A stretch of DNA of 64,000 nucleotides from Tateyamaria omphalii (lineage in GTDB: Bacteria; Pseudomonadota; Alphaproteobacteria; Rhodobacterales; Rhodobacteraceae): the NCBI RefSeq assembly GCF_019802125.1, contig NZ_JAHVHT010000001.1, positions 1,364,001 through 1,428,000 of the forward strand. Reading direction: 5' to 3'. The stretch's first letter is position 1, and every line of letters starts with the position of its first letter. Below the pieces are notes generated by a model. The model was not told the DNA's origin, searched no databases, and saw nothing but the letters and a program-made list of their open reading frames with translations. Positions 1-26,970 of the stretch are shown here, one piece after another. The translations under genes were made by a program, and so were the position numbers.

Positions 1-28
1 TACCGGGCTTTTCAACAACGTTGCTCAT
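1..28 (-). CDS. 5' end of an unidentified protein, cut by window edge
   Basis: Reading leftward, an ATG (28-26) opens the frame MSNVVEKPG and runs off the window edge. A purine-rich GAGAGG stretch sits about 7 bases upstream of the ATG, as a ribosome binding site would. Only nine residues are visible, so the product cannot be named. It is divergent from the thiolase operon and shares the 29-296 control region with it, so it may belong to the same catabolic island. Confidence 0.45.
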
Positions 29-79
29 GTGTCGACCTCTCGAAGCGCATCCTGAATACCATGCTCAATACAAAATAAG

Positions 80-95
80 CAATGATATTTCATAT
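80..95. promoter_or_regulatory. Weak copy of the ATGAA-TTCAT operator palindrome
   Basis: The 16 bases CAATGATATTTCATAT match 12 of 16 positions of the stronger palindrome at 22945-22960 and keep the ATGA and TCAT half sites. The site lies in the divergent control region between the leftward gene at 28 and the thiolase operon. Unlike the two better sites it is not preceded by a TTGAC box at 9 bases. A MarR-type operator is an inference from position and partial symmetry. Confidence 0.35.
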
Positions 96-222
96 GTGTG
101 ATAAAATCCCATAAATGTCACGCCTTGCCTGGATGGATTTTGGCCGCGATAGGACCCGATGATTTTGGGAACGCCATGCTTTCGGGATCAGCCTGATCCG
201 CCGCTGCTTTATAAGTAAATTT

Positions 223-251
223 TTGACTTAAAAACTTAAGCAAGATATATG
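223..251 (+). promoter_or_regulatory. Candidate promoter of the thiolase operon
   Basis: A TTGACT box (223-228) is followed after 17 bases by TATATG (246-251), close to the sigma-70 pattern. The spacer holds two ACTTAA repeats and a CTTAAG palindrome (235-240). If this promoter is real, the ATG at 249 lies inside its -10 box and cannot be the translation start, which favours the ATG at 297 or 315. Confidence 0.45.
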
Positions 252-296
252 ATTTTACATTTAAACGGTGCCAAGCAAAGCGACGCGCCGATAGAG

Positions 297-1487
297 ATGG
301 AAACGTGCCGGGCAATGCGGCAAAGGCAGAAATACGATGGCGTGGCGCTGGTCGCACCATACACGGAACCCTACGCGCGCTACTCCTCACATACGGCGCA
401 CTGGTGGATTGCGCGCGCTCTGCGCGGTTGCCTTCAGACAGCGGGGCTGAACAAGAACGCCCTGGACGGTTTCTGTGCCAGCAGCTTTTCTCTTGCACCT
501 GATACGGCCGTCGGGCTGACACAGCATCTGGGGCTGTGCTTGCGCTGGCTTGACCACATCCCCATGGGCGGCGCCAGTGCGATCGTCGCGCTCAGACGTG
601 CGGCCCGGGCGGTACAGGCCGGGGATGCGGAAATCATTGCCTGCGTGGCCGGCGACACCAACCATACTGACAGCTTTCGCAAACTGCTGTCAGGGTTCTC
701 ACGATTTGCGTCCGATGCTGCATACCCTTACGGCTTCGGCGGCCCGAACATGAGCTTTGCGCTGCTCACCGATCACTACATGAAAACCTACGGTGCCACA
801 CGGGCGGATTTTGGCAAGATCTGTGTGGCGCAACGGGACAACGCCTTGCACGCACCCGGCGCGTTGATGACGAAACCGCTAACGCTGGAGCAATATCTGA
901 ACGCCCGGATGATCTCTGATCCGATCGCGCTTTTTGACTGCGTCATGCCGTGCGCCGGCGCCGAGGCCTTTCTGGTCATGACGACGGACCGGGCAGTGAA
1001 GATGGGCCTGCCCTTCGCCCGGATCTCCGGCCTGATTGAACGGCACAACGCCCATACTGATGACCCGATCCAGTTCCGTGGCGGGTGGACCATGGATGTG
1101 GATGAGCTTTACGCAATGGCCGAAGCGACACCAGAGCAGATCGACCTGCTGCAATCCTATGATGACTATCCGGTGATCTCGATGATGCAGATGGAAGATC
1201 TGGGCTTTTGCGCAAAGGGCGAAGGCCCCGCATTCGTGCGCAGGCACGATCTGACCATCGACGGGTCCTTCCCGCACAATACATCGGGCGGCCAAATCTC
1301 CGGCGGCCAGGCTGGGGCCGCGGGCGGATATCTCGGCCTTGTAGAGGCCATTCGTCAGGTGACGCACACAGCAGGTTCAACGCAGGTGAAGGGTGCCAAA
1401 CGGGCGATGGTGTCGGGCTTCGGGATGATCAATTATGATCGCGGCTTGTGCACAGGCGCCGCAATACTGGAGGCAGGCGACATATGA
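297..1487 (+). CDS. Thiolase-fold protein lacking the catalytic Cys; probable retro-aldolase subunit
   Basis: A thiolase-superfamily (SCP2-thiolase-like) protein of 396 residues. By eye, the motif that normally carries the nucleophilic Cys reads MGGASA (about residues 90-95), with Gly in place of Cys. The C-terminal GHPxGA motif reads GGQAGAAGG (about 335-344), so the usual His is missing too. Such proteins paired with a DUF35 partner, as in the steroid side-chain aldolase Ltp2, perform retro-aldol cleavage of tertiary beta-hydroxyacyl-CoAs rather than thiolysis. The next gene is a DUF35 protein and overlaps it by ATGA, which supports that role. Start: the ATG at 249 has atypical codons and overlaps a promoter-like box; 297 and 315 are both possible. 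Substrate (dioxindole-3-acetyl-CoA) is inferred. Confidence 0.8.
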   Translation: METCRAMRQRQKYDGVALVAPYTEPYARYSSHTAHWWIARALRGCLQTAGLNKNALDGFCASSFSLAPDTAVGLTQHLGLCLRWLDHIPMGGASAIVALRRAARAVQAGDAEIIACVAGDTNHTDSFRKLLSGFSRFASDAAYPYGFGGPNMSFALLTDHYMKTYGATRADFGKICVAQRDNALHAPGALMTKPLTLEQYLNARMISDPIALFDCVMPCAGAEAFLVMTTDRAVKMGLPFARISGLIERHNAHTDDPIQFRGGWTMDVDELYAMAEATPEQIDLLQSYDDYPVISMMQMEDLGFCAKGEGPAFVRRHDLTIDGSFPHNTSGGQISGGQAGAAGGYLGLVEAIRQVTHTAGSTQVKGAKRAMVSGFGMINYDRGLCTGAAILEAGDI

Positions 1488-2737
1488 GCAGCCGCGCACA
1501 CATGCCAAAGAAAGATCCACAAAAGCGGACAAACACGCCTACGCAACCGCCACCACAACGCAGCCGGGCAGCTCTCGGCCTCACAGCTGCAGCAGCCGAA
1601 GGTCGTTTCATGCTCCAGGTCTGTCCGGAATGCCGCGCCGTGCAATACCCACCGCGCGATGCCTGTGTCGATTGCCTCGACACGGCGCTGCAATGGCAAG
1701 ACATCACTCCCACCGGCCAACTGCTTGCCGACACAACAGTTCGAACCTCCACCAACCTTTACTTTCGTGAACGAGGAGATTGGCGTGTCGGGACCGTGGA
1801 ACTTGACGCCGGCCCCAAGATTGTCTGCCATCTCGCGCAGGATTGCAGCGCTCCTGAACGCGTCACATTGCTTGCACGGCTCGACCGGTCCGGCCAGGGC
1901 GTGTTGGTGGCGCAGCCGGAGAACAGCAAGACGCGGCTTGCCGATGACCCCCAACTGAAGGCTTTGACAAGCGATCCACGCCACGCACGGGTGCTGGTGA
2001 CAGATCTCCGCAACGCCAATACTCCCGCACTTGTCGAGCATTTGCTTGCAGCGGGGGCTGAGACTGTTTTCGTTGGGGAAAGCGAGGCTTGGCGCAAGGA
2101 CCCGCAACGCGATGCACTGGCAGCCATACCGGGTGTCGAAATCATGCCACTTGATGTGACGGACACAAATTCTGTCAGGCAACTCGCGGCTGAGATCGGG
2201 GGAAAGATTGAAATCTTGATCAATAATGGGCGCTTCTTGCGCCCTGCCCGCCTACCCTCAGGCGGCGATACGGTCTTTGCGGCGCAGGAGATGGACGTGA
2301 ACTATCTGGGTTTGCTTCGGCTGGCCCAAGGCTTTGGCCCAGCTCTGGCATCGCGGACAGCGGATGGGCAACGCCAGGCGCTTGCGTGGGTCAACATCCT
2401 GTCGATCTTTGCGCTGAACCCAGTGCCTGGCTTTGACACGTTCGCAGCCTCACAGGCCGCTGCGCGATCCCTTTCACTGTCGATGCGCGCTACCTATCAA
2501 TCTTCCGGGTTGCGGGTGATGAACGTCTACGTCGGTGCAACCGAGGATGTCTGGCATCAACCGGTGCACCCGCCCAAACAATCCCCTCGCGCATTGGCGC
2601 GCGACCTTGTTGCCGGGTTGCAGGATGGGCTCGAAGACGTCGTCAGCGGCGACACGGCCCGCGACCTGATGGAACGGTTTCGCGAGCATCCCGGCGTGTT
2701 TGAGCGCGAAGTGACCTTTGGAGAATGGGGCGTTTGA
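1484..2737 (+). CDS. DUF35 zinc-ribbon/OB-fold protein fused to a degenerate SDR domain
   Basis: 417 residues. Residues 40-150 are a DUF35 acyl-CoA-associated domain: a zinc ribbon with Cys47, Cys50, Cys61 and Cys64, then an OB-like region. Residues 165-400 resemble a short-chain dehydrogenase but have lost its active site. The NNAG motif reads NNGR (247-250), and the YxxxK pair is Phe320 and Gln324. The nucleotide-binding glycine motif (VTDLRNANT, 172-180) is also gone. DUF35 proteins are obligate partners of thiolase-like aldolases, so this should form a complex with the upstream gene. The start ATG overlaps the upstream stop, with GGAGG about 10 bases ahead. The SDR-like half is probably structural or a binding module rather than a redox enzyme; this is inference. 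Confidence 0.82.
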   Translation: MSSRAHMPKKDPQKRTNTPTQPPPQRSRAALGLTAAAAEGRFMLQVCPECRAVQYPPRDACVDCLDTALQWQDITPTGQLLADTTVRTSTNLYFRERGDWRVGTVELDAGPKIVCHLAQDCSAPERVTLLARLDRSGQGVLVAQPENSKTRLADDPQLKALTSDPRHARVLVTDLRNANTPALVEHLLAAGAETVFVGESEAWRKDPQRDALAAIPGVEIMPLDVTDTNSVRQLAAEIGGKIEILINNGRFLRPARLPSGGDTVFAAQEMDVNYLGLLRLAQGFGPALASRTADGQRQALAWVNILSIFALNPVPGFDTFAASQAAARSLSLSMRATYQSSGLRVMNVYVGATEDVWHQPVHPPKQSPRALARDLVAGLQDGLEDVVSGDTARDLMERFREHPGVFEREVTFGEWGV

Positions 2738-3516
2738 TGAGCCACAGCCTTCTGACAGATGTGACGCAGGCGCTGACAACAGGCGTTTTGCGACTTGTGG
2801 ACCTGACGCACACGCTGGACCCAGACTTCCCGGTCATTATTCTGCCGCCGGAGTTCGGTCAGTGCGCCAGGTTCCGGATGGAAGAGGTCTCTGCCTATGA
2901 CAATCGTGGCCCGGCGTGGAAATGGCACAATCTGACGCTCAATGAGCATACCGGCACGCATTTCGACGCGCCCGCCCACTGGATTTCCGGGCGTGACGTG
3001 CCAAACGGAACGGTGGACGCGATCCCGGTGGACGCATTCGTCGGGCCTGTGGTTGTCATCAACTGCTCTGCGGGGGCGGCCACGAATGATGATTTCGAAC
3101 TGACGCCCGACATCATTTTCGATCATGAAACTGCGCACGGTACCATTCCCGAAGATAGTTGGGTTCTGATGCGGACCGACTGGTCGAAACGACGTGGCGC
3201 GGATTATCTGAACATGCAGGCGGACGGCCCGCACTCACCTGGCCCCACACCGGATGCCGTTCGCTTACTGGTCGAAGAACGGAACATTCGTGGTTTCGGC
3301 ACTGAAACCGTGGGCACGGATGCAGGCCAAGGCAGCCACTATACACCACCCTACCCGGCACATTTCATTCTGCACGGAGCAGGGAAATTTGGGCTGCAAT
3401 GTCTGTGCAATCTCGACCAACTTCCACCGACGGGAGCCGTTCTGATCGCGGCGCCACTCAAGATCAAAGGCGGCACTGGCAGCCCATTGCGAGTGATGGC
3501 TCTGGTGCCGGGATAG
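2737..3516 (+). CDS. Cyclase-family metal hydrolase, isatin-hydrolase-like
   Basis: 259 residues of the kynurenine formamidase/cyclase fold (PF04199). The metal-binding motif HTGTHFDAPAHW is near residue 72. The blocks DGPHSPGPTPD, GTDAGQ and PPYPAH are shared with the second copy at 10049-10840. These blocks fit marine isatin hydrolases (manganese enzymes opening isatin to isatinate) better than kynurenine formamidase, though this rests on memory of the family. It is the third gene of a tightly overlapping operon (upstream TGA shares its last A with this ATG). That placement fits a product of the upstream retro-aldolase being the substrate. An ATG four codons earlier is also in frame. Another cyclic imide or amide is possible. 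Confidence 0.85.
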   Translation: MSHSLLTDVTQALTTGVLRLVDLTHTLDPDFPVIILPPEFGQCARFRMEEVSAYDNRGPAWKWHNLTLNEHTGTHFDAPAHWISGRDVPNGTVDAIPVDAFVGPVVVINCSAGAATNDDFELTPDIIFDHETAHGTIPEDSWVLMRTDWSKRRGADYLNMQADGPHSPGPTPDAVRLLVEERNIRGFGTETVGTDAGQGSHYTPPYPAHFILHGAGKFGLQCLCNLDQLPPTGAVLIAAPLKIKGGTGSPLRVMALVPG

Positions 3517-3681: not shown

Positions 3682-4233
3682 ATGAGCCAGACTATTCCGA
3701 CCTTCGCATCCGACCCATCAACAAGCGAGCTCGAGCGTAACAACCTGGCGGTGACGAACTTCGAATTCGCTGCGTGGCATCTCGCTTCGGCTTTTGCCAA
3801 GTGGCGGCGTGATTGCAGCGCCTCACTTCCCTACAACGACCTCAGTGGGTCGGAAACGTCGATCCTGCACATCGTACACATGAGCGGGACACCAAAGGGG
3901 CTTTCCGACATTGCACGCCTTTTGCATCGCGACGATACCGCAAACCTGCAATATGGGATCAAGAAATTGCTCTCAATAGGCTACGTTGAGAAAGCGGATG
4001 GTTCCAGTTCTCGCAAGCTGACACGATATCAGGTCACGGAGGAAGGTGAGGCACTGGTAACGGCGTTCCATCAGCGCCGTGAGGAAATCCTGCTGGAACT
4101 TACACAAGCGCTACCTGGTGTTTCCGACACGATTGAGAAAACAACAAACGTCCTGCACGTGATGGCCGGTCTGTATGAGCAAGCAAGTGAAATCGCACTG
4201 ATGCGTTCAGTTCAGAGCCCATCTGAAGATTGA
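3682..4233 (+). CDS. MarR-family winged-helix regulator
   Basis: 183 residues with a winged-helix DNA-binding domain at about 35-145: helices around SGSETSILHIV and SDIARLLHRDD, then the wing GSSSRKLTRYQVTEEG. It belongs to the MarR-related HTH group. A GAAAGG sequence 8 bases ahead of the ATG supports the start. It follows the cyclase gene after 165 bases, so it may have its own promoter. That gap holds a weak inverted repeat, ACCTA at 3617-3621 and TAGGT at 3633-3637. One of three MarR-type genes in the island; it likely senses an aromatic intermediate, but the ligand is not visible. Confidence 0.85.
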   Translation: MSQTIPTFASDPSTSELERNNLAVTNFEFAAWHLASAFAKWRRDCSASLPYNDLSGSETSILHIVHMSGTPKGLSDIARLLHRDDTANLQYGIKKLLSIGYVEKADGSSSRKLTRYQVTEEGEALVTAFHQRREEILLELTQALPGVSDTIEKTTNVLHVMAGLYEQASEIALMRSVQSPSED

Positions 4234-4313: not shown

Positions 4314-5852
4314 TCACAAAAAGCTTTTGACGGTCTCTATCGCCCCATCAAGCGCATCACCATCCGGATCTTGCAAAGCAGCCTCGCGCAAACGCTGAAC
4401 CCACGTCGCTGCATCGTCGCGCCCCTTCAAAAGCTCGGCGGCAGACATGACCTTCGTAAACTTGGTGAGACCACGCGCGTGGGTGTCCGAATATCCTTTG
4501 ATCAGACGGCGGTTTTTGAACAGCTCAACGGCAAGTGCATAGTCTTCGGTGCACGCATCCCGGCACGCTGACAACCAGTCTGCCATATGCTGAACTTCAA
4601 CGGCATGTCGACGGGTACGCAGGCGATACCTTTTGAGCCCGCCCAAGACATGCAGCATCAAGAACACCCGCAAAGTGTGTGTTCTCAGGCGACGCCCCTT
4701 GGAAAAGATGCGGTTCAGCAAGGCCATCCTTGCCGGGCTGGCCTCCCAACGGGCGCCCATTTTTGCAGGAAAGAGGCTCACCACCTCTTCCGCTCGCGGA
4801 TGGAAGAACTCGGTCAATTCCAGAACCTTGTCCGCCGATGCATCCATTTCCTCGTGAATGCGCAACAAGCGGGAGGATCTGGTCTTGAGGTCCGCCACAC
4901 GAATGATGTCGTCGTAGACCATTGCGTTGGCAATATACTTCGCGGCCGTCCGAGTTAGTTCCCAATCACGCTCGGGTCCGTCTTGGGTTTGAAACTCCGA
5001 CAGCCGGTCCAAATACAGGGTCCCGTATTCGACATCTTGAAAGTCGACCACTTTCTTGAGCCCGGCGCTGGCTATGGGCTGGACCGGGTGTGCAAGGGCC
5101 GCGACACGGGTGGCGAGGTCATCCCAACCGCGCATCAAGGTTACGGGCCCAACCAACTTCCGCTCGGTCGACACAGTTTCATGTGCCACCGCAGGAGCAA
5201 CACCAGCCGTCGCCGCCTCGAACCCGGCATTGAATGCACGCAGCGACGCGTCAACGCCCTTGCCGCTCCTGCGAATGGCATCCTCGAAAGCATCCCGCGC
5301 AAAGGGCAAAACCCCTGACCCTGCAAGAGCACCGAACAGGCTGGATGAGATCACGGAGCCCTGCTCGACCGCCAGTCGGTCCATATCAGCAAGGATCAGG
5401 GTCTGGGCTGCAATCTCCGCCGCCGCGCGCACCTCCTCTGAATTCGCTATTCCATCCCCGGGGGCGGTTTTCTCAGACACGGCGAGGGCGCGATGGGTCG
5501 AGCCAATCAGAACCGTCCGATCCGGCGTCACGAACCCACGCATGACCGCACGCCCGACCTCCATCATTTCAGCAGCAATGACCACATCCACATCACCCTC
5601 TGCAGGGGCAAGGGAAAAGACCGGTGTCTTGTCCGATGCGGGCATCATTTCGACGTAGTAGATCGTGGCGCCCGTCCGCTGCGCCACGCCCGCGACAGAC
5701 GTGGCCTGACATGTGTAGCCCTGCGCACGAGCCAGGCTTTCGATCCAATTGGTCAGAACACCGCCGCCCTGCCCGCCAACAGCGATTATGGCGATCTTGA
5801 GTATGCGCCCCACCGCCGGATCCACCGGTTTTGGATCAAGCGCGAGGTTCAT
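4314..5852 (-). CDS. iorB: Indolepyruvate-type ferredoxin oxidoreductase, beta subunit
   Basis: 512 residues. The N-terminal gamma/beta domain begins with IAVGGQGGGVLTNW, typical of 2-oxoacid:acceptor oxidoreductase beta subunits, and a long C-terminal extension fits the large IorB form of aerobic proteobacteria. With IorA it oxidatively decarboxylates aryl 2-oxoacids to aryl acyl-CoA, reducing ferredoxin. Start: the ATG at 5852 overlaps the iorA stop by ATGA; the open frame runs further upstream inside iorA, but that part is an out-of-frame shadow. It is the last gene of a five-gene minus operon starting with an isatin-hydrolase-like gene. I therefore suggest isatinate (2-aminophenylglyoxylate) as a possible substrate in addition to indolepyruvate; that is inference. 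Confidence 0.9.
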   Translation of the reverse strand: MNLALDPKPVDPAVGRILKIAIIAVGGQGGGVLTNWIESLARAQGYTCQATSVAGVAQRTGATIYYVEMMPASDKTPVFSLAPAEGDVDVVIAAEMMEVGRAVMRGFVTPDRTVLIGSTHRALAVSEKTAPGDGIANSEEVRAAAEIAAQTLILADMDRLAVEQGSVISSSLFGALAGSGVLPFARDAFEDAIRRSGKGVDASLRAFNAGFEAATAGVAPAVAHETVSTERKLVGPVTLMRGWDDLATRVAALAHPVQPIASAGLKKVVDFQDVEYGTLYLDRLSEFQTQDGPERDWELTRTAAKYIANAMVYDDIIRVADLKTRSSRLLRIHEEMDASADKVLELTEFFHPRAEEVVSLFPAKMGARWEASPARMALLNRIFSKGRRLRTHTLRVFLMLHVLGGLKRYRLRTRRHAVEVQHMADWLSACRDACTEDYALAVELFKNRRLIKGYSDTHARGLTKFTKVMSAAELLKGRDDAATWVQRLREAALQDPDGDALDGAIETVKSFL

Positions 5853-7999
5853 GCTGGTGCGTCCTCGAACCGCAGCCGCTTGGCGTCCCGCCTTTTCTGC
5901 AACCATCGGATTGTGCGGTTGCGCAACCCCGCCCGCCAGCTTTCGAACCCTGCCGGATTGTGAACCACGTCGGCGCGGTAGAAGGATGGGCAAAGAACGG
6001 CAGCATCGGCGACTTCACCGCAGTTGCCACACCCCACACAGGTCTGGTCAATATGCGCGATCGGGTCATCACGCAGCGGGTCATCGAGTTTCTTGAGCGA
6101 GAGTGAGGGGCATCCCGACAAGCGGATACACGCATGATCGCCCGTACAGACATCGGCATCCACACCGAAGCGCGGAACCTCGACACGCTTGCCGTCCTTG
6201 ATGGCCGCCTTGCGGATTGGCTTTTCTCGGCGTTGCTTGTTCAGCATACACTCGGATGACGCCACGATGACTTTTGGACCTTTGAAATCGGTGGTCAGCG
6301 CCTCGCGCACGGTGTCGCGGACATGACCGACGTCATAGGTGTTGTCGATCTGCCTGATCCATTCCACACCAACCCCCTTGAGAGCATCGCTGATCGGATT
6401 GTTGGTCGCCTTGGTCTTGTTCTGCGCGCGAGACGACAGGATGTCCTGCCCCCCCGTCGCCGCAGAATAGTAGTTGTCCACGATCACGACGACATTGTCA
6501 GATTTGTTGAAGACCATGTTGCCGATGGAGGAGCTCAGGCCATTGTGCCAGAAGCCGCCATCACCAAGGATCGAGATCGCGCGCCGCTCTCCCCCTCCGT
6601 CGAAGGCCCCATTCGCGGCCGGCCCAAGACCGTAGCCCATGGTCGCGCCCCCTATCTCGAACGGGGGCAAAGACCCGAACAGATGGCAGCCTATGTCCGC
6701 GCTGATCTGGCTTTTGCCCAGCTCCTGTTCCACCAGTTTCAGACCTGCAAAGATCGGGCGCTCCGGACAGCCGGTACAAAAGCCGGGGGGTCGGCCGGGC
6801 ACGGTCTGCGACAGGTCCGGGATGGCCGGTGCCTCCTGGTTGGGCGCACGGACTTGGCCGGGCAACAGATCTGGTGCTGCCTCTTTCAGGAAATCGGTGA
6901 TCCCATCGAGCATGACCTGACCGGTGTATTCTCCGGCCATCGGCAAAACACCCTTGCCAAGCAATTTGATCTTGTGACCGCCTTTGTAGAGAAAGTTGCC
7001 CAATGCCTGTTCGATATGCTCGGGCTGCCCCTCCTCAACAACCAGAATATGGTCCTTGCCCGCGCAGAAATCGTCAAACTCAGATCGAACCAACGGATAT
7101 GTGACGTTCAGACAATAGATGGCGATATCCGTTTCTCCGAAGACATCTGCCAGGCCCAGACGCTGCAAGGCTCGGATAACCCCATTGTACATCCCGCCCT
7201 GCACAACGATCCCGACTTTCGCATCCTTGGACCCAAAGATTTCGTTCAGGTCATTTTCAACAATGAACGCCTCTGCCGCTGGCCAGCGATGCTCGATCTT
7301 TTCAAGCTCGTGGGTGTAGCTTGCAGGTGGCAGAACAACGCGCTTGAAATCGGACTGCGGATTGGCGATGGCCTCCTTGACTGTCAGGGCCGGAGAAACG
7401 TTATCCCGTGTCTTGAAACTGCCGGTCACATGGCAGGACCGGATGCGCATCATCAGCATCACGGGTGTGTTGCTCGCCTCCGACAATTCGAAACCATCCT
7501 TCACGGCCTTCGTGATACAGGGCAGGTTCGGGCGCGGATCAAGCAGCCAAAACTGGGATTTCATGGCGAAGCCGTGGCTGCGCTCCTGCATGATCGAAGA
7601 GCCTTCACCGTAGTCTTCACCGACGATGATCAGCGCGCCACCGTTCACGCCAGATGAACACAGGTTTGCCAGCGCATCCGACGCAACATTCACACCAACC
7701 GGCCCCTTGAACGTCACGGCGCCCCGGATCGGATAGTGGACGCTGGCAGCGAGCATCGCTGCCGCTGCGGCCTCCGATGCGTTGGCCTCAAAGCGCACGC
7801 CAAGCTCGGTCAGCAGATCTTCGGCATCCGCGAGCACGTCCATCAGGTGGCTGATCGGGGCCCCTTGGTAACCACCGACATAGCCGACACCATTCTCCAA
7901 CAGCGCCTTGGTGATCGCCAGAATCCCCTCGCCCGTGAAAACCTCGCCATCGCCTTTGCGCAGGTGCTCTACCTCAGCCTTGAATGACCGCTCAGCCAT
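5849..7999 (-). CDS. iorA: Indolepyruvate-type ferredoxin oxidoreductase, alpha subunit
   Basis: 716 residues, the size of long IorA proteins. The pyrimidine-binding/pyruvate oxidoreductase domain spans about 1-390. The FCTGCPERP block is at about 407-415 and the thiamine diphosphate motif GDGGFWHNG at 479-487, with DNYYSAATGG after it. The C-terminal iron-sulfur region has CTGDHAC...GCP (618-631) and CVGCGNC...CP (664-681). The complex uses CoA and ferredoxin to convert aryl 2-oxoacids to acyl-CoA and CO2. A strong AGGAGGACC precedes the ATG. It follows the MarR gene by 8 bases and overlaps iorB by 4. Arylpyruvates are the known substrates of the family; the context suggests an aryl glyoxylate. 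Confidence 0.95.
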   Translation of the reverse strand: MAERSFKAEVEHLRKGDGEVFTGEGILAITKALLENGVGYVGGYQGAPISHLMDVLADAEDLLTELGVRFEANASEAAAAAMLAASVHYPIRGAVTFKGPVGVNVASDALANLCSSGVNGGALIIVGEDYGEGSSIMQERSHGFAMKSQFWLLDPRPNLPCITKAVKDGFELSEASNTPVMLMMRIRSCHVTGSFKTRDNVSPALTVKEAIANPQSDFKRVVLPPASYTHELEKIEHRWPAAEAFIVENDLNEIFGSKDAKVGIVVQGGMYNGVIRALQRLGLADVFGETDIAIYCLNVTYPLVRSEFDDFCAGKDHILVVEEGQPEHIEQALGNFLYKGGHKIKLLGKGVLPMAGEYTGQVMLDGITDFLKEAAPDLLPGQVRAPNQEAPAIPDLSQTVPGRPPGFCTGCPERPIFAGLKLVEQELGKSQISADIGCHLFGSLPPFEIGGATMGYGLGPAANGAFDGGGERRAISILGDGGFWHNGLSSSIGNMVFNKSDNVVVIVDNYYSAATGGQDILSSRAQNKTKATNNPISDALKGVGVEWIRQIDNTYDVGHVRDTVREALTTDFKGPKVIVASSECMLNKQRREKPIRKAAIKDGKRVEVPRFGVDADVCTGDHACIRLSGCPSLSLKKLDDPLRDDPIAHIDQTCVGCGNCGEVADAAVLCPSFYRADVVHNPAGFESWRAGLRNRTIRWLQKRRDAKRLRFEDAPA

Positions 8000-18403: not shown

Positions 18404-18561
18404 ATCAATCCCACTGCCAGACACGGCTGGCCCTGTTCTGAAGGGGTGATGCGCGCACCTGAACCATCACACGCATCAGTGAGACCCCATTCGGCAGAAG
18501 ATGCCGCTGAAAGCATCTGGCCGGTCGCCAGCGCTGCCATCATTGAGTACATACCCACCAT
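18400..18561 (-). CDS. 53-codon ORF tightly overlapping both neighbours, function unknown
   Basis: Between the acyl-CoA ligase and the SDR an open frame of 53 codons starts at an ATG sharing its A with the ligase stop (TGATG). It ends at a TGA overlapping the SDR start (ATGA). It fills the only gap in an otherwise overlapping operon. The translation begins MVGMYSMMAALATGQMLSAAS, a hydrophobic Met-rich N terminus that could be a signal peptide or membrane segment. It has two Cys residues and ends in CLAVGLI. No Shine-Dalgarno is evident, so translation would rely on coupling. It may be a real small protein, a remnant of a larger gene, or chance. Confidence 0.45.
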   Translation of the reverse strand: MVGMYSMMAALATGQMLSAASSAEWGLTDACDGSGARITPSEQGQPCLAVGLI

Positions 18562-20662: not shown

Positions 20663-21972
20663 TACGCGGTCCCCATCGACACGGTCATGAATTTGACCCA
20701 TGCGTCGAACTGGTTGCGCATCTGTCGTTCCGTGGTGCCGTTTTCCACCACCTCTTCGGAATAGTCCTCGACACCCGTCATCAGACGCTGGATGTCCACC
20801 CACTCCAACCCGTTTGAAACCAGGCCCTCCTGGGCGCGTTCGTACATCTCCAAATCGTCATGCCCGACAATCGAAGTCGGTGCATTGATCATGCGATTGT
20901 ACATCGCCGTCCGTGCCAGCAACTCGTCCGGCGCATCAACGAGGCGGTAGATATAGCTTTCCACCAACGTCCTGTCCGGCCCGAGCGGGATGAAGTTCCG
21001 TAACTGCTGGATTGGACCTTTGATCATTATGTTGGGAAAGTAGACGGTGTTGTGGCGATTTTCGTTCAGGATTTCCTTTGCACGTTGTTCGCCATACGCT
21101 TCGCTCAGCGCCGGAAAATAACCCGGAACCTCTGAATACTCCGAGTGGATCGAATGATTTACCCCCGTATGGCCATGGCCATTGGGCCAGGTGCGGATGC
21201 CCATGTTTTCAAAGAATTCATAGGGCGACATGAAAGGCGCGATGATCTCCATTGCAGGTGGACGTGGCTCCGGGTTGCCCATCTCCTTCCAGATACCGAC
21301 GGCCGTGCCCGCGCTGCTTTCATGCGCCACCATCGGGTGGCAGGTGTCAGTCTGGTTTTCGACCAGCATCTTCCAATTGCATTGATGCATATAGCGAAGG
21401 GGTGGACCCGCCACCTCCAGCCGCCCGGCAGGTGAGCGATCCACCGTATTGTCGATCGAACTCAGGCTATCGCCGAAGTAGTCCTCGAACGATATGCCCT
21501 CGTCCGCAAGCCGCGCAAAGACAAAGCCACGATAGACCCGCACCGCACCAACAGCTTTCATGCCCTTGGCATTTTCGGTCTTGTTCAACTCGGTGTCCTG
21601 GTAGCCCTTCTTCAGCGGGATCGCGAGCAGGCAACCGTCCGTCTTGAAACTCCACGCATGATAGGGACAACGAAAGAACTTTCCGGTGTTGCCGGATCGG
21701 TCGATGGCAATCTTTGTCCCTTTGTGCGGGCAGCGATTGTGGAGAACCTTGATCTCTCCATCACCGTGGCGCACCTGAATGACCGGCTGTGCGCCGATCT
21801 GCGTTGTGTAGTAGTCGCCCTTGTGCGGCGTCTGGCTTTCATGCCCCACGAAAACCCACGTATTCACAAAGAGATGGCGCATCTCCAGATCATAGACCTG
21901 TTGACTGGTGTACACATCGCGGTGGACCTGTGGCCCTCGAACCATGGCTGAAACATCACCGGCTGTGAGCAT
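20662..21972 (-). CDS. Rieske non-heme iron dioxygenase, alpha subunit
   Basis: 436 residues. The Rieske [2Fe-2S] motif uses Cys81-x-His83 and Cys102-x2-His105. The mononuclear iron facial triad appears as Asp209, His212 and His217 with Asn206 ahead. It uses O2 and electrons from the adjacent reductase to hydroxylate an aromatic ring. The start ATG at 21972 has GAGGAGATC upstream; an in-frame start five codons earlier overlaps the reductase end. Related alpha subunits act on benzoates, anthranilate and indole-3-acetate; the surrounding isatin-hydrolase-like and ior genes favour an indolic substrate. Confidence 0.95.
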   Translation of the reverse strand: MLTAGDVSAMVRGPQVHRDVYTSQQVYDLEMRHLFVNTWVFVGHESQTPHKGDYYTTQIGAQPVIQVRHGDGEIKVLHNRCPHKGTKIAIDRSGNTGKFFRCPYHAWSFKTDGCLLAIPLKKGYQDTELNKTENAKGMKAVGAVRVYRGFVFARLADEGISFEDYFGDSLSSIDNTVDRSPAGRLEVAGPPLRYMHQCNWKMLVENQTDTCHPMVAHESSAGTAVGIWKEMGNPEPRPPAMEIIAPFMSPYEFFENMGIRTWPNGHGHTGVNHSIHSEYSEVPGYFPALSEAYGEQRAKEILNENRHNTVYFPNIMIKGPIQQLRNFIPLGPDRTLVESYIYRLVDAPDELLARTAMYNRMINAPTSIVGHDDLEMYERAQEGLVSNGLEWVDIQRLMTGVEDYSEEVVENGTTERQMRNQFDAWVKFMTVSMGTA

Positions 21973-21983
21973 GGCTGATCTCC

Positions 21984-22922
21984 TCAAATGTCGAGAACAA
22001 GGCGCTTGGAGGTGGCGCGGCTGACACAGATTTGCATGACTTTTCCCGCGAGACGTTCCTCTTCCGAAAGAACCACATCCCGGTGATCAGGCGTGCCAGA
22101 CAGCACATCGCACTGGCAGATACCACAATCACCGCGTTGGCAATCGTACATGACATCGACCCCTGCTGCCTCGAGCACCTCAATGATGGTCCGGCCAACC
22201 GGGACCTGAAAGACGCGGCCATCGTTGATTTCAACCTCGAAGTCCGTGTCGTCGGTTTTCATGTCGTGGGGCGCAAAAAGCTCGACATTGATATGGGTCA
22301 GTCCTGCCGCTTCGGCCGCGCGTCGTGCGGCGCTGATCATGCCGCTTGGGCCGCAGATGTAGAGTGCCGTGTTCTGCGGCTGGGTCGTCATCAAGTCATC
22401 AAGATCAAGTGGCTCCACATCGTCGAAATGGAAAACCGTCTGCTCTTTGAAAGCAGTTGTCAAAGCGCTCACAAAGCCCATCGCAGCTGCGCTACGCCCG
22501 GTATAGTGAAGCGCAAAACATCGTGTCGTCTTCGAAAGCGCTGTTGCCATCGAGATCATTGGGGTGATGCCGATACCGCCCGCAAGCAGGAGCACCGGAG
22601 CGTCCGTTACGTCCAGTGGAAAATCGTTGGCCGGGGCACTTGCATCCACAACCGCCCCAACATCAAGGGCATGCATGGCCTTCGAACCACCCGCGCCCTC
22701 GTCTTCGCGCTGGACCGCCACCACGTAGTCCTGCCGTGGGCCTGTTTGGGAATTCGGCCAGTCAATGAGAGAATAGGACCGCTGCCCTGCCACCCCCAAG
22801 TCAAACTCCACATGCGCCCCAGCCTCGTACGCTGGAAGGCGCGCGCCATCTGCCGATTGAAACCGAAAGACCCGAATACGCGGTGTCTCATCAACGATCT
22901 CTGTCAATCTGAGCGCAGTCAT
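21984..22922 (-). CDS. Dioxygenase reductase (flavin/NAD domain plus C-terminal [2Fe-2S])
   Basis: 312 residues of the phthalate-dioxygenase-reductase/vanillate-demethylase reductase type. The flavin motif RSYSL is at about 48-52 and the NAD motif GGIGITPM at about 115-122. The C-terminal plant-type ferredoxin domain has Cys ligands in CQRGDCGICQC and a last Cys in QICVSRA. It passes electrons from NAD(P)H to the Rieske oxygenase. The start at 22922 has AGGAGGAG just upstream; the frame stays open 12 codons further, through the promoter palindrome. First gene of the dioxygenase operon. Confidence 0.94.
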   Translation of the reverse strand: MTALRLTEIVDETPRIRVFRFQSADGARLPAYEAGAHVEFDLGVAGQRSYSLIDWPNSQTGPRQDYVVAVQREDEGAGGSKAMHALDVGAVVDASAPANDFPLDVTDAPVLLLAGGIGITPMISMATALSKTTRCFALHYTGRSAAAMGFVSALTTAFKEQTVFHFDDVEPLDLDDLMTTQPQNTALYICGPSGMISAARRAAEAAGLTHINVELFAPHDMKTDDTDFEVEINDGRVFQVPVGRTIIEVLEAAGVDVMYDCQRGDCGICQCDVLSGTPDHRDVVLSEEERLAGKVMQICVSRATSKRLVLDI

Positions 22923-22944
22923 GGCTCCTCCTAGCCCGACTATT

Positions 22945-22960
22945 ATATGAATTTTCATAT
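22945..22960 (-). promoter_or_regulatory. MarR-type operator inside the dioxygenase operon promoter
   Basis: ATATGAATTTTCATAT is a near-perfect 16-base palindrome, 23 bases upstream of the reductase start. Read leftward it sits within a promoter: TTGACC (22972-22967) and an exact TATAAT (22947-22942), spacing 19. The core ATGAAAATTCAT starts 9 bases after TTGAC, exactly as in the TRAP operon promoter at 27009-27036. A repressor bound here would block polymerase. The divergent MarR gene at 23039 is the obvious candidate. Confidence 0.75.
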
Positions 22961-23038: not shown

Positions 23039-23491
23039 GTGAGCAAAGGATTTGTAAAATCCTACCTGTTGTATTTGCTCGCAGCCTGCAGCGAGACGGC
23101 CAGCGCCGAATTTCACGCCAAGGTCCGCAAATCAGGTCTGAGGGTGCCGGAATGGCGCGTTCTGGCGTGTTTGAACGACGAAGACGGGCAGATGATCACG
23201 CATTTGGCCCATGTGGCCCTTGCCGAGCAGTCCCGCCTCACACGCATTATCGACGGTATGGTCAAACGGGATTTGCTGGAGCGTCGCAGCGATAAATCCG
23301 ACGGACGACGCGTGCGCATCTATCTGACCGATAAAGGTCGGGCGATTGCGACAGATCTGGTGGAACAGGCCAAAGCCCACGAGACGGATCTTCTCTCCCG
23401 TCTACCAGAAGCGCAGGTGAGTGCATTGAAGCCAGCGCTCACAACGCTGTTGGAGGTTCTGGAACAAAAAGAGGGCGAGACACACACCTAG
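23039..23491 (+). CDS. MarR-family transcriptional regulator, divergent from the dioxygenase operon
   Basis: 150 residues. The winged helix spans about 35-110, with recognition-helix region AEQSRLTRIIDGMVKRDLLER and wing SDKSDGRRVRIYLTDKG. The start is GTG with a perfect GAAGGAGGT (23025-23033). Divergent orientation from the dioxygenase operon with a 16-base palindrome between them is the textbook MarR arrangement. The same palindrome precedes the TRAP operon, so this protein probably represses both and is released by a pathway ligand. Confidence 0.93.
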   Translation: MSKGFVKSYLLYLLAACSETASAEFHAKVRKSGLRVPEWRVLACLNDEDGQMITHLAHVALAEQSRLTRIIDGMVKRDLLERRSDKSDGRRVRIYLTDKGRAIATDLVEQAKAHETDLLSRLPEAQVSALKPALTTLLEVLEQKEGETHT

Positions 23492-23612: not shown

Positions 23613-24044
23613 ATGGCACTTGTCTTCACCACTGATCGCGAACTTCGCTTCGGAGATTGCGACATTTCCGGCACCGCGTACTTCCCGGCCTACGTCAACA
23701 TTCTGAATGGCGTGAACGAGGAATTCTGGGCGCATATCGGATATCCATGGCATGAGATCATCTGGAAAGAGCGTTGGGGCACGCCAACCGTGCACCTGAG
23801 GTGCGACTTTTCAAAACCGTCTATGTTTGGCGAAACGCTGACATTCCACCTCGGCGTGATCCGACTTGGCCGGTCCTCGATGACCGTGCGCCACAAGATC
23901 AACTGTGGTGGCGAACAACGGTGGACCAGCACGCAGATCCTGGCGGCCAGTGATCTGGACAAGCACAGCTCGATCCCCTGGCCCGACGCCGTGCGCGACA
24001 CGCTGCAAGACTGGCTCACCACGCAGGAAGAGCTGGGTTTCTGA
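23613..24044 (+). CDS. Hotdog-fold acyl-CoA thioesterase, 4-hydroxybenzoyl-CoA thioesterase type
   Basis: 143 residues, the standard single-hotdog length. The N-terminal motif FGDCDISGTAYFPAYVNILN carries the Asp of 4HBT-type enzymes (about residue 17). It hydrolyses aromatic or short acyl-CoA esters. Its place 121 bases after the MarR gene, within the island, suggests it releases a pathway product from CoA; anthraniloyl-CoA to anthranilate would fit the proposed route. The ribosome site is weak. Confidence 0.85.
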   Translation: MALVFTTDRELRFGDCDISGTAYFPAYVNILNGVNEEFWAHIGYPWHEIIWKERWGTPTVHLRCDFSKPSMFGETLTFHLGVIRLGRSSMTVRHKINCGGEQRWTSTQILAASDLDKHSSIPWPDAVRDTLQDWLTTQEELGF

Positions 24045-24056
24045 TCCTGACCAAGT

Positions 24057-25370
24057 CTACATCTGGCCCGGCAGAAACAGCACCAGCGCCGGTATCGCGA
24101 GCAGCAATATCAGCCGGATGATGTCCACGACCCAGAAGGGTGTAACCCCGCGGAAAATCGTTCCCGTCGACACATCGCCGACGACCCCCTTCAAGACAAA
24201 GACATTCAGTCCGACGGGTGGCGTGATCAGGCTGATTTCGGTCACCACAACGACAATGATGCCGAACCAGATCGGATCGTAGCCAAGCTGGATCACGATC
24301 GGAAAGAAGATGGGTACCGTCAGAAGCAGCATCGACAGGCTTTCGAACACACACCCCAGCAGGATGTAGATCACGAGAATGCAAGCCATGACCTGCCATG
24401 GTTGCAAATCGTATTGGGTCACGAACCCGCTCAAGGCACCAGGCAGCCCCGCAATATTGACGAAGTTCGAGAAGATCCAGGCGCCGATCAAGACGACAAA
24501 CAGACCCGCGGCCGTCATTGCGGTTTCCTGCAGGACTTCAAGTGTGTCACGAAAACTCAGGCGCCGCCGCGCCAATGCGATCAGGAACGCCCCCATCGCA
24601 CCCATGCCAGCCGCTTCGGTTGGGGAAAAGTTCAGGTTCAGCGGCGGAACATCAAAGATCCCGTAAAGCCCGCCGATGACCAGAAAGAACAAAAGCAACA
24701 CGGCCCAGACATCGCGCAACGCGGCAAGCCGGTCTTTCAGGGACGTGCGAGGGCCTGCAGGGCCCGCATTCGGGTCACGATAGACAACAAACCGAACCGC
24801 GACGAGATAAAGAACAATCCCAAGCAGGCCAGGCACGATGCCTGCCACGAACAGCTTGCCGATGGAGGTTTCCGTCAACAAACCGTAGATCACCAGGATC
24901 ACGGAAGGCGGGATCAGAATGCCGAGTGTGCCGCCCGATGCGATGGAGGCGGTCGAGAGACGATCCGAATAGCCAAAGCGGCGCATTTCCGGCATCGCGA
25001 CCTTGGCCATTGTCGCAGCTGTCGCCAATGACGATCCGGAAATGGCGGCAAACCCACCGCATGCCACAATTGTTGCCATGGCCAGGCCGCCCCGGAAATG
25101 CCCAAGAAACGCGTTGGACGCCGCATAAAGCTCCCGACTGATCCCCCCCTTGTTCACGAAAAGGCCCATCAGAATGAACAGCGGTACGACCGACAGCCCA
25201 TAGTCCTGAGAGGTGTCGATGATCAACCGCGCGACCATGGAAATCGCGGCACGAAAACTTGTCTCGAACATGAAGCCGATCATGCCGACACATCCCATGG
25301 CAAAGGCAATCGGGATGCGGACCAGCACAAGGACAAGGACGGCTGCGAAGCCAATCAGGCTCTCGATCAT
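24057..25370 (-). CDS. TRAP transporter large permease, DctM type
   Basis: 437 residues with about 12 hydrophobic helices and DctM-family blocks such as GLFVNKGGISREL, PPSVILVIYG and a C-terminal SLITPPVGLNVFVLKG. It carries the Na+-coupled transport pathway. The start at 25370 has GGAGGAACG upstream and overlaps the small-permease stop by ATGA. The preceding open 32 codons lie antisense-free inside DctQ and are not used. Last gene of the TRAP operon. Confidence 0.95.
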   Translation of the reverse strand: MIESLIGFAAVLVLVLVRIPIAFAMGCVGMIGFMFETSFRAAISMVARLIIDTSQDYGLSVVPLFILMGLFVNKGGISRELYAASNAFLGHFRGGLAMATIVACGGFAAISGSSLATAATMAKVAMPEMRRFGYSDRLSTASIASGGTLGILIPPSVILVIYGLLTETSIGKLFVAGIVPGLLGIVLYLVAVRFVVYRDPNAGPAGPRTSLKDRLAALRDVWAVLLLFFLVIGGLYGIFDVPPLNLNFSPTEAAGMGAMGAFLIALARRRLSFRDTLEVLQETAMTAAGLFVVLIGAWIFSNFVNIAGLPGALSGFVTQYDLQPWQVMACILVIYILLGCVFESLSMLLLTVPIFFPIVIQLGYDPIWFGIIVVVVTEISLITPPVGLNVFVLKGVVGDVSTGTIFRGVTPFWVVDIIRLILLLAIPALVLFLPGQM

Positions 25371-25852
25371 TGCCGTTCCTCCAGGTGATGCGGAGCAAAG
25401 GCAAAAACCAGACCACGTATGAGCAGGACCAGAGCCGTCACGGCGGTCATCGCCGCGATAAACCACCCGATGTAGAAAAGCGGCAGTCTCAGATACTCGC
25501 TTACATCACCATAAGACCGGCTGCGCTCTGCCAGAACCCAGACGCGCTGCGCGGGCCAAACAAGGAGCAATCCACAAAACACATTGCCCACGGCATCCCG
25601 CCACCGCGCCAGACCCCAGCGCCGGAATGGCCCGTCCAGAAGGTCCACGCTCACGTGTTGTCCCTTCCCCGAAAGTACGGGCAGCACGGAAAAGACCATG
25701 ATCGCCATCAGCACCCGGGTCAGGTCCGCCGCGACCTCAATGGGCGCGTTCAGCATCGACCGAAGCATGACATCGGCAAATGTGAGCAGCATCAGCGCAA
25801 ACAGAGCCGTGGATGCCAAAAGGCCGGGCAAGCGCGTTAGGAGTGAAAGCAT
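25367..25852 (-). CDS. TRAP transporter small permease, DctQ type
   Basis: 161 residues with four hydrophobic segments and the DctQ pattern TFADVMLRSMLNAPIEVAADLTR near the N terminus. The open frame begins at a GTG at 25927, adding 25 polar residues; the ATG at 25852 is preferred because homologues start just before helix 1, though neither start has a good ribosome site. It sits between the binding protein and DctM. Confidence 0.88.
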   Translation of the reverse strand: MLSLLTRLPGLLASTALFALMLLTFADVMLRSMLNAPIEVAADLTRVLMAIMVFSVLPVLSGKGQHVSVDLLDGPFRRWGLARWRDAVGNVFCGLLLVWPAQRVWVLAERSRSYGDVSEYLRLPLFYIGWFIAAMTAVTALVLLIRGLVFAFAPHHLEERQ

Positions 25853-25953
25853 GAGCAAGCCGGAACCTGGGAAGTGGCGATGGGATTTTCGGGGGTCAAT
25901 GCTGCCGCGGGACGTACCTGCCAGCACAGTAGCTCGAGATGCGCGGGATACAC

Positions 25954-26970
25954 TCAGTCCGCTGCCATGTCCGCCTTCACCTGGGCATAGGCCGCTGCGG
26001 CATCGACACCCGCGTCGCTAAGCTCGCTCAAGACCGCGGTGATCACGGTGTCCGCGATTTCGGCAAACGCGGCCTGATCTTCGGCAGATGCAACGACGAC
26101 ATTCACATCTTCTGCACTTTCGGAGGCCTCATAGCCAAGCTGATCTGACTTGTCCCACGCAGCTCCTGCCATTCGGCTCGCGGGCTCCCCGAAAACTTGT
26201 GTGTCCAACGCAACCTGAGCATCCTGCGGGAGAGCGGCGAAGGTCTCCTCGCTCATGATGATTGCAAACGAGCCGCGATAGAGGCCGCCCGGCATATCGT
26301 AGAGTGTCTGTGCGACCTCGTTCAGCTTAAATCCGATCCGCTCGCCAACATTCATGGCCACCGCATCGGCAGCGCCGGATTCAAGTGTTTCGTACACTTT
26401 CGGGGCAGGCACATTGATACCCACCAGTCCCAACGCTGCGCCCACATCGCCTGCGACACCGCCACCAATACGCGTTTTCAAACCAGCCAGATCGGACAGG
26501 TCGTTGACCGTACCGTTGATATGCATCTGGCCCGGGCCATGCGTGTTCAGCGAAATCAATTTGACGCCACGGTGCTCGTTCAACTGTGCAAGATGCGTTT
26601 CGTGCACACGCCAATACGCGACAGAGGCTTGCTCGGCATTGCCTGTGTACCCTGGCAATTCAATCAGCTTGGTACCGACAAAGCGACCGGGCTGATAGCC
26701 ATGAAAGATAATGGCTATATCAGCTGCGCCATCAAGGATCAGGTCCATCTGCGCGGGTGGCGGCGCGAGGCCAAAGATCAACTCACCGGTCACCGCGCCA
26801 CCGGTAGCGTCTTCCATCATCTCCACCAGGCCCGCGAAAATCTCGGTGTTCACACCATGGGTGGGAGGTAGCCATGTCGAGATTCTCAGCGTCGTGTCAG
26901 CGGCCAAGGCCGAGGCTGCGCTCAGGACGCCTGCCACAACGGCAGCCAGCAATGCATTCACGTTTTTCAT
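25954..26970 (-). CDS. TRAP transporter substrate-binding protein, DctP type
   Basis: 338 residues. A Sec signal peptide (NALLAAVVAGVLSAASALA) is followed by TLRISTWLPPTHGVNTE, typical of DctP binding proteins. The start ATG at 26970 has GGGAG 8 bases ahead; nine upstream codons are in frame but unlikely. TRAP systems import carboxylic acids, and the shared operator with the dioxygenase operon implies that the ligand is the aromatic acid degraded by the island or a close relative. Confidence 0.95.
   Translation of the reverse strand: MKNVNALLAAVVAGVLSAASALAADTTLRISTWLPPTHGVNTEIFAGLVEMMEDATGGAVTGELIFGLAPPPAQMDLILDGAADIAIIFHGYQPGRFVGTKLIELPGYTGNAEQASVAYWRVHETHLAQLNEHRGVKLISLNTHGPGQMHINGTVNDLSDLAGLKTRIGGGVAGDVGAALGLVGINVPAPKVYETLESGAADAVAMNVGERIGFKLNEVAQTLYDMPGGLYRGSFAIIMSEETFAALPQDAQVALDTQVFGEPASRMAGAAWDKSDQLGYEASESAEDVNVVVASAEDQAAFAEIADTVITAVLSELSDAGVDAAAAYAQVKADMAAD

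Follow-up and report, generated by a model that had tools for sequence, protein, structure and literature searches.

The closest described relative of the locus reported here is the iad cluster (iadA-N and iadR) of Variovorax paradoxus CL14, which breaks down the auxin indole-3-acetate (IAA). In the published account, the Variovorax oxygenase IadCDE takes free IAA as its substrate and shows monooxygenase behaviour, IadJ leads to dioxindole-3-acetate, and IadF is placed afterwards, its reaction having been assigned from annotation and mutants (PMC12633357). The iad genes are already on record for Ruegeria pomeroyi, auxin loci of both types taken together have been reported for 221 genera, and iorAB (iadAB) have been termed exclusive markers of iad-like operons (PMC9613470); iad-like operons were also reported in two of 304 marine metagenome-assembled genomes (PMC11630574). 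We analyzed a stretch of 64,000 nucleotides from the 4.49 Mb genome of Tateyamaria omphalii (G000:C1:1364001-1428000; hereafter the window, numbered from its first letter), in which genes were typed by open reading frame (ORF) listing and Pfam. As judged by comparison with related loci, the window carries a real iad auxin-degradation locus, that is, a system of known kind whose recurrence is far beyond chance. It is quite likely that this IAA-inducible iad locus took in a second isatin module, which lies apart from iad in most relatives.

The Rieske oxygenase alpha subunit IadD (20662..21987, minus strand) finds its best solved matches in 9o71 (E 2e-168) and 7yls (E about 1e-168), the next family following at 2e-40; the entry 9o71 is the Variovorax IadDE structure (PMC12633357). 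The Variovorax-type locus L166 (genome G379), which encodes an IadD almost the same as 9o71 in sequence (963 bits over 427 residues), has the gene order iadR, iorA-iorB-iadC-iadD-iadE-iadF-iadG-iadH-iadI-iadJ. All of its genes from iadA to iadJ, as well as iadR, have orthologues in the window, with identities of 40% for IadC, 55% for IadD, 46% for IadE, 53% for IadF, 63% for IadG, 48% for IadH, 59% for IadI, 54% for IadJ, 62% for IorA, 42% for IorB, and 35% for IadR. The likeness to iad loci, which a first-pass annotation of the window had pointed out, is thus borne out, and all the gene parts named there were found about where it placed them. An uninterrupted iadC-D-E-F-G-H-I-J run is present in 51 of the 80 related genome loci fetched by IadD; among the other 29, some are cut at contig ends and some are rearranged or without certain genes in the stretch. 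The same succession of reductase, alpha and beta subunits, ligase, thiolase, short-chain dehydrogenase/reductase (SDR), cyclase, and SDR forms one run on plasmids of Roseibium aggregatum, Sulfitobacter indolifex, R. pomeroyi DSS-3, and Sulfitobacter sp. THAF37, and the first of the two SDR-labelled genes in related loci aligns end to end with the DUF35-SDR fusion of the window. Within the Rhodobacteraceae panel of 198 genomes (one genome per genus), iadD was found in 16. The marker genes iorAB are present in the window as well, though placed inside the isatin module.

The genes iadCDE and iadFGHIJ (ligase, thiolase-fold protein, DUF35-SDR fusion, cyclase, and SDR) all lie inside 23 kb. Read along the minus strand, the island runs through iadC (NAD/2Fe-2S reductase, 21984..22958, start probably 22922), iadD, iadE (oxygenase beta subunit, 20174..20662, start inferred), iadF (AMP-forming acyl-CoA ligase, 18561..20177), and iadJ (SDR dehydrogenase, 17681..18424, with intact YxxxK and glycine motifs). 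It continues on the opposite strand with an Opp/Dpp-type ABC importer (12548..17647; substrate-binding protein of family 5, two permeases, two ATPases) and the second CrtO-like FAD oxidoreductase gene (10955..12523). Again on the minus strand follow isatin hydrolase B (10049..10840), another FAD oxidoreductase gene of the CrtO/CrtI-like type (8484..10052), a MarR gene (8008..8487), and iorA-iorB (5849..7999 and 4314..5852). Next come, on the opposite strand, a winged-helix regulator gene (3682..4233) and iadI-iadH-iadG (2725..3516, 1484..2737, and 249..1487, respectively), where the true start of iadG is probably 297 or 315 rather than the ORF start at 249. Placed past iadC are iadR (23039..23491, plus strand), a 4HBT thioesterase gene (23613..24044, plus strand), and a tripartite ATP-independent periplasmic (TRAP) importer (24057..26997, minus strand).

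In contrast to the Variovorax iad locus, iadGHI are thus detached and inverted relative to iadCDEFJ, and an 11-gene isatin module lies in between, comprising a second isatin hydrolase (isatin hydrolase B), the MarR regulator, iorAB, the two FAD enzymes, and the Opp-type importer; iorAB belongs to this module, and the likely IAA importer is putatively of the TRAP type, as compared with an IadK2-type binding protein. In the uncultured Sulfitobacter locus L097, iadC-D-E-F-J are followed by inverted iadI-H-G in the absence of an isatin module, so that the window looks like the L097 arrangement with the module inserted between iadJ and iadI. The list of genes in the first-pass annotation was right, although it overlooked the two CrtO-like FAD proteins and the extension of the island past the upstream window edge, where genes for a kynureninase-like and a cupin protein and, at a distance of 20 kb, an anthraniloyl-CoA-type operon are located.

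The reading of all these genes as one route conceals that isatin hydrolase B and iorAB form a separate module. Among 13 relatives fetched for isatin hydrolase B, 11 share its neighbours and their order (ABC importer and FAD gene, then divergently isatin hydrolase B, FAD gene, MarR, iorA, and iorB). The module of L155 is without FAD and ABC genes, and that of L158, at a contig end, is without MarR and iorAB and has the second FAD gene and the ABC genes on the same strand. For nine of these 13 relatives, iadD is located on another contig; in the remaining four it shares the contig, at a distance of 19-31 kb. Isatin hydrolase B together with iorA but without iadD occurs in 21 of the 198 family genomes. 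The window is not the only case of module and iad being joined: iadR of L088 is directly adjoined by a reduced core made up of isatin hydrolase B, MarR, iorA, and iorB, without FAD and ABC genes. Solved isatin hydrolases A and B both come from Labrenzia aggregata (PMC6117287). Both are matched in the window, isatin hydrolase A by IadI (5nnb, E 2.7e-150) and isatin hydrolase B by its namesake (4j0n, E 3.2e-159), 6.5 kb apart. In Roseibium aggregatum IAM 12614, which we take to belong to the same species as Labrenzia aggregata, isatin hydrolase A lies in iad and B in a module on another contig. R. pomeroyi SZCCDBG043 resembles the window in having iadC-J, TRAP importer, 4HBT, MarR, and iorAB close together; however, it has only one isatin hydrolase, lacks isatin hydrolase B, and its iadC-J run is unsplit. 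The two CrtO/phytoene-desaturase-like FAD proteins gave weak matches only, to carotenoid desaturases and an oxidoreductase, and the matches of the ABC importer's binding protein were confined to general binders of peptides, opines, nickel, and heme.

The regulators and their predicted sites separate the two units. The regulator MarR_73 holds the IAA carboxylate via Ser28, His32, and Arg46, and the ring via residues including Tyr15 and Trp45 (PMC9613470). All five residues are kept in the window IadR, whereas the MarR protein encoded at 8008 keeps only Tyr15 and Arg46, having lost Ser28, His32, and Trp45, and the regulator encoded at 3682 has none of the five. The first-pass annotation counted three MarR regulators; those at 8008 and 23039 do match MarR models, while the one at 3682 matches HTH_27 only. 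Weak relatives of the latter (32-36% identity) were found near iorB in 3 of 20 stretches, and one more lies further off in L157. The nearest solved structure to the window IadR is 3cdh. The R. pomeroyi SZCCDBG043 regulator, which adjoins iadC-J and lies close to iorAB, is almost identical to 3CDH and 58% identical to the window IadR; 3CDH is described as the tightest IAA binder, at 0.237 uM (PMC9613470).

A palindrome near ATATGAAATTTCATAT is located between iadR and iadC and is matched at 13 or more of 16 positions in 29 of 50 such gaps, against 0.045 gaps expected from mononucleotide shuffles. Two features of this count should be kept in view: the same iadR-iadC gaps served both to derive the consensus and to count its matches, which tells against its weight, and the window's own site, which overlaps the iadC ORF start and so falls outside the gap as cut, was scored as a miss. 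Across 82 loci (1.57 Mb), 92 of 94 sites precede iadC or iadR, the TRAP binding protein, iorA (two), iadD (one), or iadJ (one), and two lie elsewhere. At a threshold of 12/16, the window itself has four candidate operators: two before iadG, at 80..95 (13/16) and, at the iadG ORF start, 247..262 (12/16), one before iadC at 22945..22960 (15/16), and one before the TRAP genes at 27009..27024 (13/16). Mononucleotide shuffles of the window gave one such site in 5 of 20 cases and more than one in none of 20. A scan with three mismatches found two further places against 0.12 expected from dinucleotide shuffles; its pattern was the window's own site, hence one of the three places was found by construction, a point that lowers its value. 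At 12/16 or better, the window has no IadR-type site inside the isatin module. Instead, the module has a conserved promoter element of its own at 10912..10926 (plus strand), unlike the IadR site, and exact matches to it were found in 13 of 33 stretches searched, every one an isatin-module stretch or a neighbour of one. Owing to this operator placement, the split iad parts look like one IAA regulon together with the TRAP importer, with the isatin module apart. We infer that the iad parts and the TRAP importer are under one IAA-responsive control and that the isatin module is controlled separately; the TRAP importer is thereby a candidate IAA importer.

In the pathway that we propose, IadR would keep iadCDEFJ, iadGHI, and the TRAP importer repressed as long as no IAA is bound, as suggested by orthology and the operator sites. 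By analogy with Variovorax, where these steps were shown, IadCDE would oxidize free IAA and IadJ would complete dioxindole-3-acetate, from which IadF would form the CoA ester. Retro-aldol cleavage of this ester to isatin and acetyl-CoA would then be the task of IadG together with the DUF35 domain of IadH, and IadI and isatin hydrolase B, whose Labrenzia orthologues have the activity, would open isatin to isatinate. Next, IorAB may oxidatively decarboxylate isatinate (2-aminophenylglyoxylate) to anthraniloyl-CoA, which could either enter the upstream 2-aminobenzoyl-CoA-type operon or be hydrolysed to anthranilate by the 4HBT thioesterase. IAA as the substrate, which the first-pass annotation had also proposed, is predicted with high confidence from the orthology of IadD, IadR, and the operon. 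Its isatin and isatinate intermediates likewise find support in the matches to the two solved isatin hydrolases. Two features that it took as distinctive do not set the locus apart, however: the Variovorax iad genes include the same ligase and thiolase, and thus CoA-bound steps (PMC12633357), and a regulator of the roseobacter R. pomeroyi has been treated as an iad regulator (PMC9613470).

The retro-aldol step is modelled on the steroid side-chain aldolases Sal-Shy and Ltp2-ChsH2, which share with IadG-IadH the thiolase fold, a catalytic Tyr in a YD motif, the absence of the thiolase nucleophile, and a DUF35 partner. IadG (AlphaFold model mean pLDDT 79.5) is closest to the Sal aldolase 9myr both by sequence and by fold (Foldseek E 7e-28); Ltp2 (6ok1) ranks second by fold and third by sequence, behind the putative thiolase 4u4e. 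Sal uses Tyr302 and Cys304 of YDCY as its catalytic pair and has a Gly where thiolases have their nucleophile, and Ltp2 uses Tyr294 of YDHF and Tyr344 (PMC12329534). The motif YDDY and Gly-Gly at the nucleophile region are present in 71 of 71 distinct IadG sequences (72 alignment rows, none dropped at the limits of 38% identity and 75% length), and in the region of Ltp2 Tyr344 the alignment places a Gln within a conserved GGQxSxGQAG stretch. The second catalytic residue argues against a straightforward transfer of mechanism, as Asp stands at the position of the Sal catalytic Cys and Ltp2 His; IadG is therefore not a simple copy of either enzyme. With nearest fold, catalytic Tyr, loss of the nucleophilic Cys, and DUF35 partner all present, IadG would work like Sal and Ltp2 but form a separate group.

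The partner IadH differs from ChsH2-like proteins in that its DUF35 domain is fused to an SDR-like domain rather than to a MaoC hydratase; the Cys-less thiolase of the first-pass annotation was thus confirmed, but its partner is a fusion rather than a plain DUF35 protein. Of 87 IadH rows, 3 fell below the same limits, and in the 84 kept (70 distinct sequences) the four zinc Cys of DUF35 are invariant. In the SDR part of these rows, Tyr and Lys of YxxxK never occur together, and the glycine after Thr is lost in every case (Asp in 80, Asn in 4). Among the Foldseek matches listed for IadH there are only SDR-type folds, the DUF35 part not being represented, and the nearest solved fold is 5u4s, an NADP-bound SDR. 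The retro-aldol cleavage to isatin and acetyl-CoA by IadG-IadH, already suggested by the first-pass annotation, is very likely on these sequence and model comparisons, and the SDR domain of IadH is probably inert rather than an active dehydrogenase. Two published points stand against this assignment: a 2025 preprint reads IadG as a ketothiolase and IadH as an alcohol dehydrogenase, and in Variovorax the product after IadFGH has the formula C8H7NO2, that of dioxindole, not isatin (PMC12633357). A role of IadG as ketothiolase was considered and rejected, given the missing nucleophilic Cys and the chemistry at C3. Being a tertiary carbinol, this carbon of dioxindole-3-acetate has no way to become the beta-ketone on which a thiolase depends. 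Among the matches listed in a literature search joining IadG to retro-aldol cleavage or DUF35, there was no such paper.

The role of IorAB was approached by comparative genomics, with co-occurrence counted on iorA alone. The window IorA is a TPP-dependent, IOR-like 2-oxoacid:acceptor oxidoreductase alpha subunit, and IorB combines a POR domain with DUF6537. Phenylglyoxylate oxidoreductases give benzoyl-CoA from phenylglyoxylate, and isatinate is likewise an aryl-glyoxylate. In the family panel, iorA (at least 60% identity) is present in 37 of 37 genomes with an isatin hydrolase and in 1 of 161 without, and of the 29 genomes with isatin hydrolase B and iorA on a common contig, 27 have the two within 3 kb. 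In a phylum panel of 378 genomes, where the best two iorA candidates per genome were scored so that misses are possible, iorA was found in 21 of 23 genomes with isatin hydrolase against 2 of 355 without (18 of 20 outside the family); the matches in G019, G225, and G322 are partial (386-415 residues). Since the Fisher tests ignore phylogeny, the phylum panel was also tested at genus level, with 12 of 14 against 2 of 186. Furthermore, iorAB adjoins iadC or lies within 5 kb of it in the Azospirillum, Variovorax-type, R. pomeroyi, and alphaproteobacterial G217 loci; iorA falls inside the fetched stretch in only 12 of 80 iad loci, most stretches ending 10 kb from iadD and some sooner. A 69% relative of the 4HBT thioesterase, a candidate anthraniloyl-CoA hydrolase, is located between isatin hydrolase and iorA in L269. 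From co-occurrence and linkage, together with the upstream operon, we consider it moderately probable that IorAB converts isatinate to anthraniloyl-CoA, as the first-pass annotation had suggested. Several observations pull the other way. The window IorA scores 280 bits against the 651 of the curated IOR-alpha cut-off TIGR03336; two genomes, G237 and G327, have an isatin hydrolase but no iorA at 60% identity or more, and three (G262, G019, and G546) have iorA but no isatin hydrolase. In a Variovorax strain with a deletion, plasmid-borne iadC-K2 restored anthranilate, and iadA and iadB are absent from the main text of that report (PMC12633357). The deletion covers genes 77-53, including iadA, which is gene 72 (PMC9613470). 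As iadC-K2 restores anthranilate in the absence of iadA, IorAB is not needed for anthranilate in Variovorax and some bypass must exist there. That the plasmid does not supply iadA again would fit a role of IorAB on isatinate, yet the compounds concerned are taken by the authors to be ordinary intermediates.

The operon at about C1:1335945-1343927, 20 kb upstream and outside the window, encodes RidA, a thioesterase, a benzoate-type CoA ligase, an acyl-CoA dehydrogenase, an enoyl-CoA hydratase, a MarR regulator, an SDR, and a hydroxylase/oxidoreductase. The latter exceeds the curated cut-off of 'bifunctional salicylyl-CoA 5-hydroxylase/oxidoreductase' and presumably, by its domain make-up, belongs to the 2-aminobenzoyl-CoA monooxygenase/reductase family. 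Monooxygenase/reductase-type enzyme, SDR, hydratase, acyl-CoA dehydrogenase, ligase, thioesterase, and RidA together recall the aerobic 2-aminobenzoyl-CoA pathway, to which isatinate would be linked. A related enzyme (at least 60% identity) was found in 32 of 37 isatin-hydrolase genomes against 34 of 161 others. It lies within 26 kb of iorA in 8 of 10 genomes with both on one contig, one of the eight (G533) having a contig of only 41 kb. In Azospirillum thermophilum, iorA-iorB-iadC-D-E-F-J and then the 2-aminobenzoyl-CoA-type enzyme, SDR, hydratase, dehydrogenase, thioesterase, and RidA form one run; a second ligase is not in the gene table of this stretch, which may be incomplete. The drainage of anthraniloyl-CoA into the upstream operon appears about evenly balanced on this comparison. 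It is disfavoured by the wider distribution of the 36 family genomes with both genes (8 within 26 kb, 2 far apart on one contig, and 26 on different contigs), by 3 of 16 iad genomes without the upstream-type enzyme at 60% identity, by iadG, iadH, and iadI not being found in the A. thermophilum stretch, and by the operon's own CoA ligase, because of which it can also run on free anthranilate. In the literature searched, no paper mentions both isatinate and aminobenzoyl-CoA.

Several other explanations of the gene set were weighed. Were the oxygenase and ligase to act on a non-indolic aromatic acid, the genes would be merely iad-like, and genome G324 lends this some support, with iadDE homologues (62 and 55% identity; L165:10700-12500) but no other iad gene detected within the 20 kb stretch and, also to the detriment of the IAA reading, no isatin hydrolase found in the genome. 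Full operon orthology, the IAA-pocket residues of IadR, two isatin hydrolases, and shared operators make such a substrate very improbable. Equally remote is the order assumed by the first-pass annotation, in which CoA ligation comes first and the oxygenase acts on indole-3-acetyl-CoA: ligase and oxygenase genes adjoin, though adjacency does not decide order, and this candidate was rejected, as Variovorax iadCDE is reported to consume free IAA on its own in the absence of the other locus genes (PMC12633357) and IadD of the window is orthologous. A working IadH dehydrogenase that reduces isatin to dioxindole, so that IadGH would reductively remove the acetyl group, would agree with the NADP-bound fold of 5u4s and with the C8H7NO2 that accumulates in Variovorax without iadI (PMC12633357). 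Yet none of the 84 IadH rows retains the YxxxK pair or the TG glycine, whereas at least 91 of 93 IadJ rows keep YxxxK and at least 78 of 93 TGxxxGxG (five commonest forms counted), and an active IadH seems improbable.

A more serious competitor is that the iad route stops at free anthranilate, as it does in Variovorax, and that IorAB and isatin hydrolase B do something else, such as isatin removal or indolepyruvate oxidation. Anthranilate is indeed the published end product, formed without iadAB, and the isatin module has its own MarR, a different promoter element, no IadR site in the window, and an existence without iadD in the 21 Rhodobacteraceae genomes noted above. Against this stand the nearly constant co-occurrence of isatin hydrolase and iorA, also outside the family, the position of iorAB near iadC in the Azospirillum, Variovorax-type, R. 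pomeroyi, and G217 loci, the two iorA genes preceded by an IadR-type site, and the enrichment of the 2-aminobenzoyl-CoA-type enzyme in isatin-hydrolase genomes; we regard an anthranilate end as unlikely for the window. Taking the parts together, we tentatively propose, at slightly less than even confidence for the whole, that the iad pathway proceeds through CoA thioesters up to its last step. IadGH would form a new YDDY-type branch of DUF35-dependent retro-aldolases with a pseudo-dehydrogenase partner (compared with YDCY or YDHF in the known enzymes), and IorAB would be an isatinate:acceptor oxidoreductase that delivers anthraniloyl-CoA into the 2-aminobenzoyl-CoA pathway, free anthranilate being an overflow. 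Isatin hydrolase and IorAB would then constitute a portable isatin unit that may also serve a non-auxin indole source, imported by the Opp-type importer and opened by the two CrtO-like FAD enzymes.

Some further observations concern the neighbourhoods of these genes. Just upstream of the window (L148:15171-18028), kynureninase-like, cupin, and HTH-cupin regulator genes stand immediately before iadG. The kynureninase-like gene has Pfam support only (PF22580 at 3.4e-8) and no NCBIfam match at E 1e-20; its relatives are also found near isatin modules in L260, L264, L269, and L271. In L257 (7966-9057), from a genome without iadD, a luciferase-like monooxygenase gene lies between a relative of the HTH_27 regulator and iorB and is a possible isatin source, and L260 has an ORF of equal length at the same spot. 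Additional oxygenase sets were noticed in three places. Past iadJ in L166 (2200-3900; G379), there is a second oxygenase pair, IadD-like (49%) and IadE-like (47% to the window). The Pantoea agglomerans plasmid p33.1_1 (L110:11072-18116) carries an iadCDE-like set (IadD 52.5% to the window) that adjoins an FAD oxidoreductase, an amidase, and an aromatic amino acid transporter in place of iadF-J. The R. pomeroyi DSS-3 megaplasmid has a divergent iadC-J set (L109:14013-22331; IadD 63.6% to the window) with no annotated MarR adjoining and a gap at 11227-14012 without a listed gene, in a gene table known to be incomplete. Elsewhere in the window, an 810-aa ORF with BNR repeats (PF15892) is located at 36894-39326 and has no link to the iad genes.

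Bacteria with iad genes shape plant roots by degrading auxin, and this capacity is being engineered into root bacteria (PMC12633357). Several iad steps have so far been assigned by annotation alone, and the present comparison offers specific testable assignments, namely a retro-aldolase versus a thiolase for IadG and an inert domain versus a dehydrogenase for IadH. The inserted module, the operator-defined regulon with its TRAP importer, and the predicted enzyme assignments were not met in the literature searched, where no search was aimed at the operator or the module layout, and they are perhaps new. An isatinate oxidoreductase, if true, would shift the end point of iad from anthranilate to anthraniloyl-CoA. 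Finally, the operator sequence appears to mark the genes of the IAA regulon and suggests that IAA uptake in Rhodobacteraceae may proceed through a TRAP importer.

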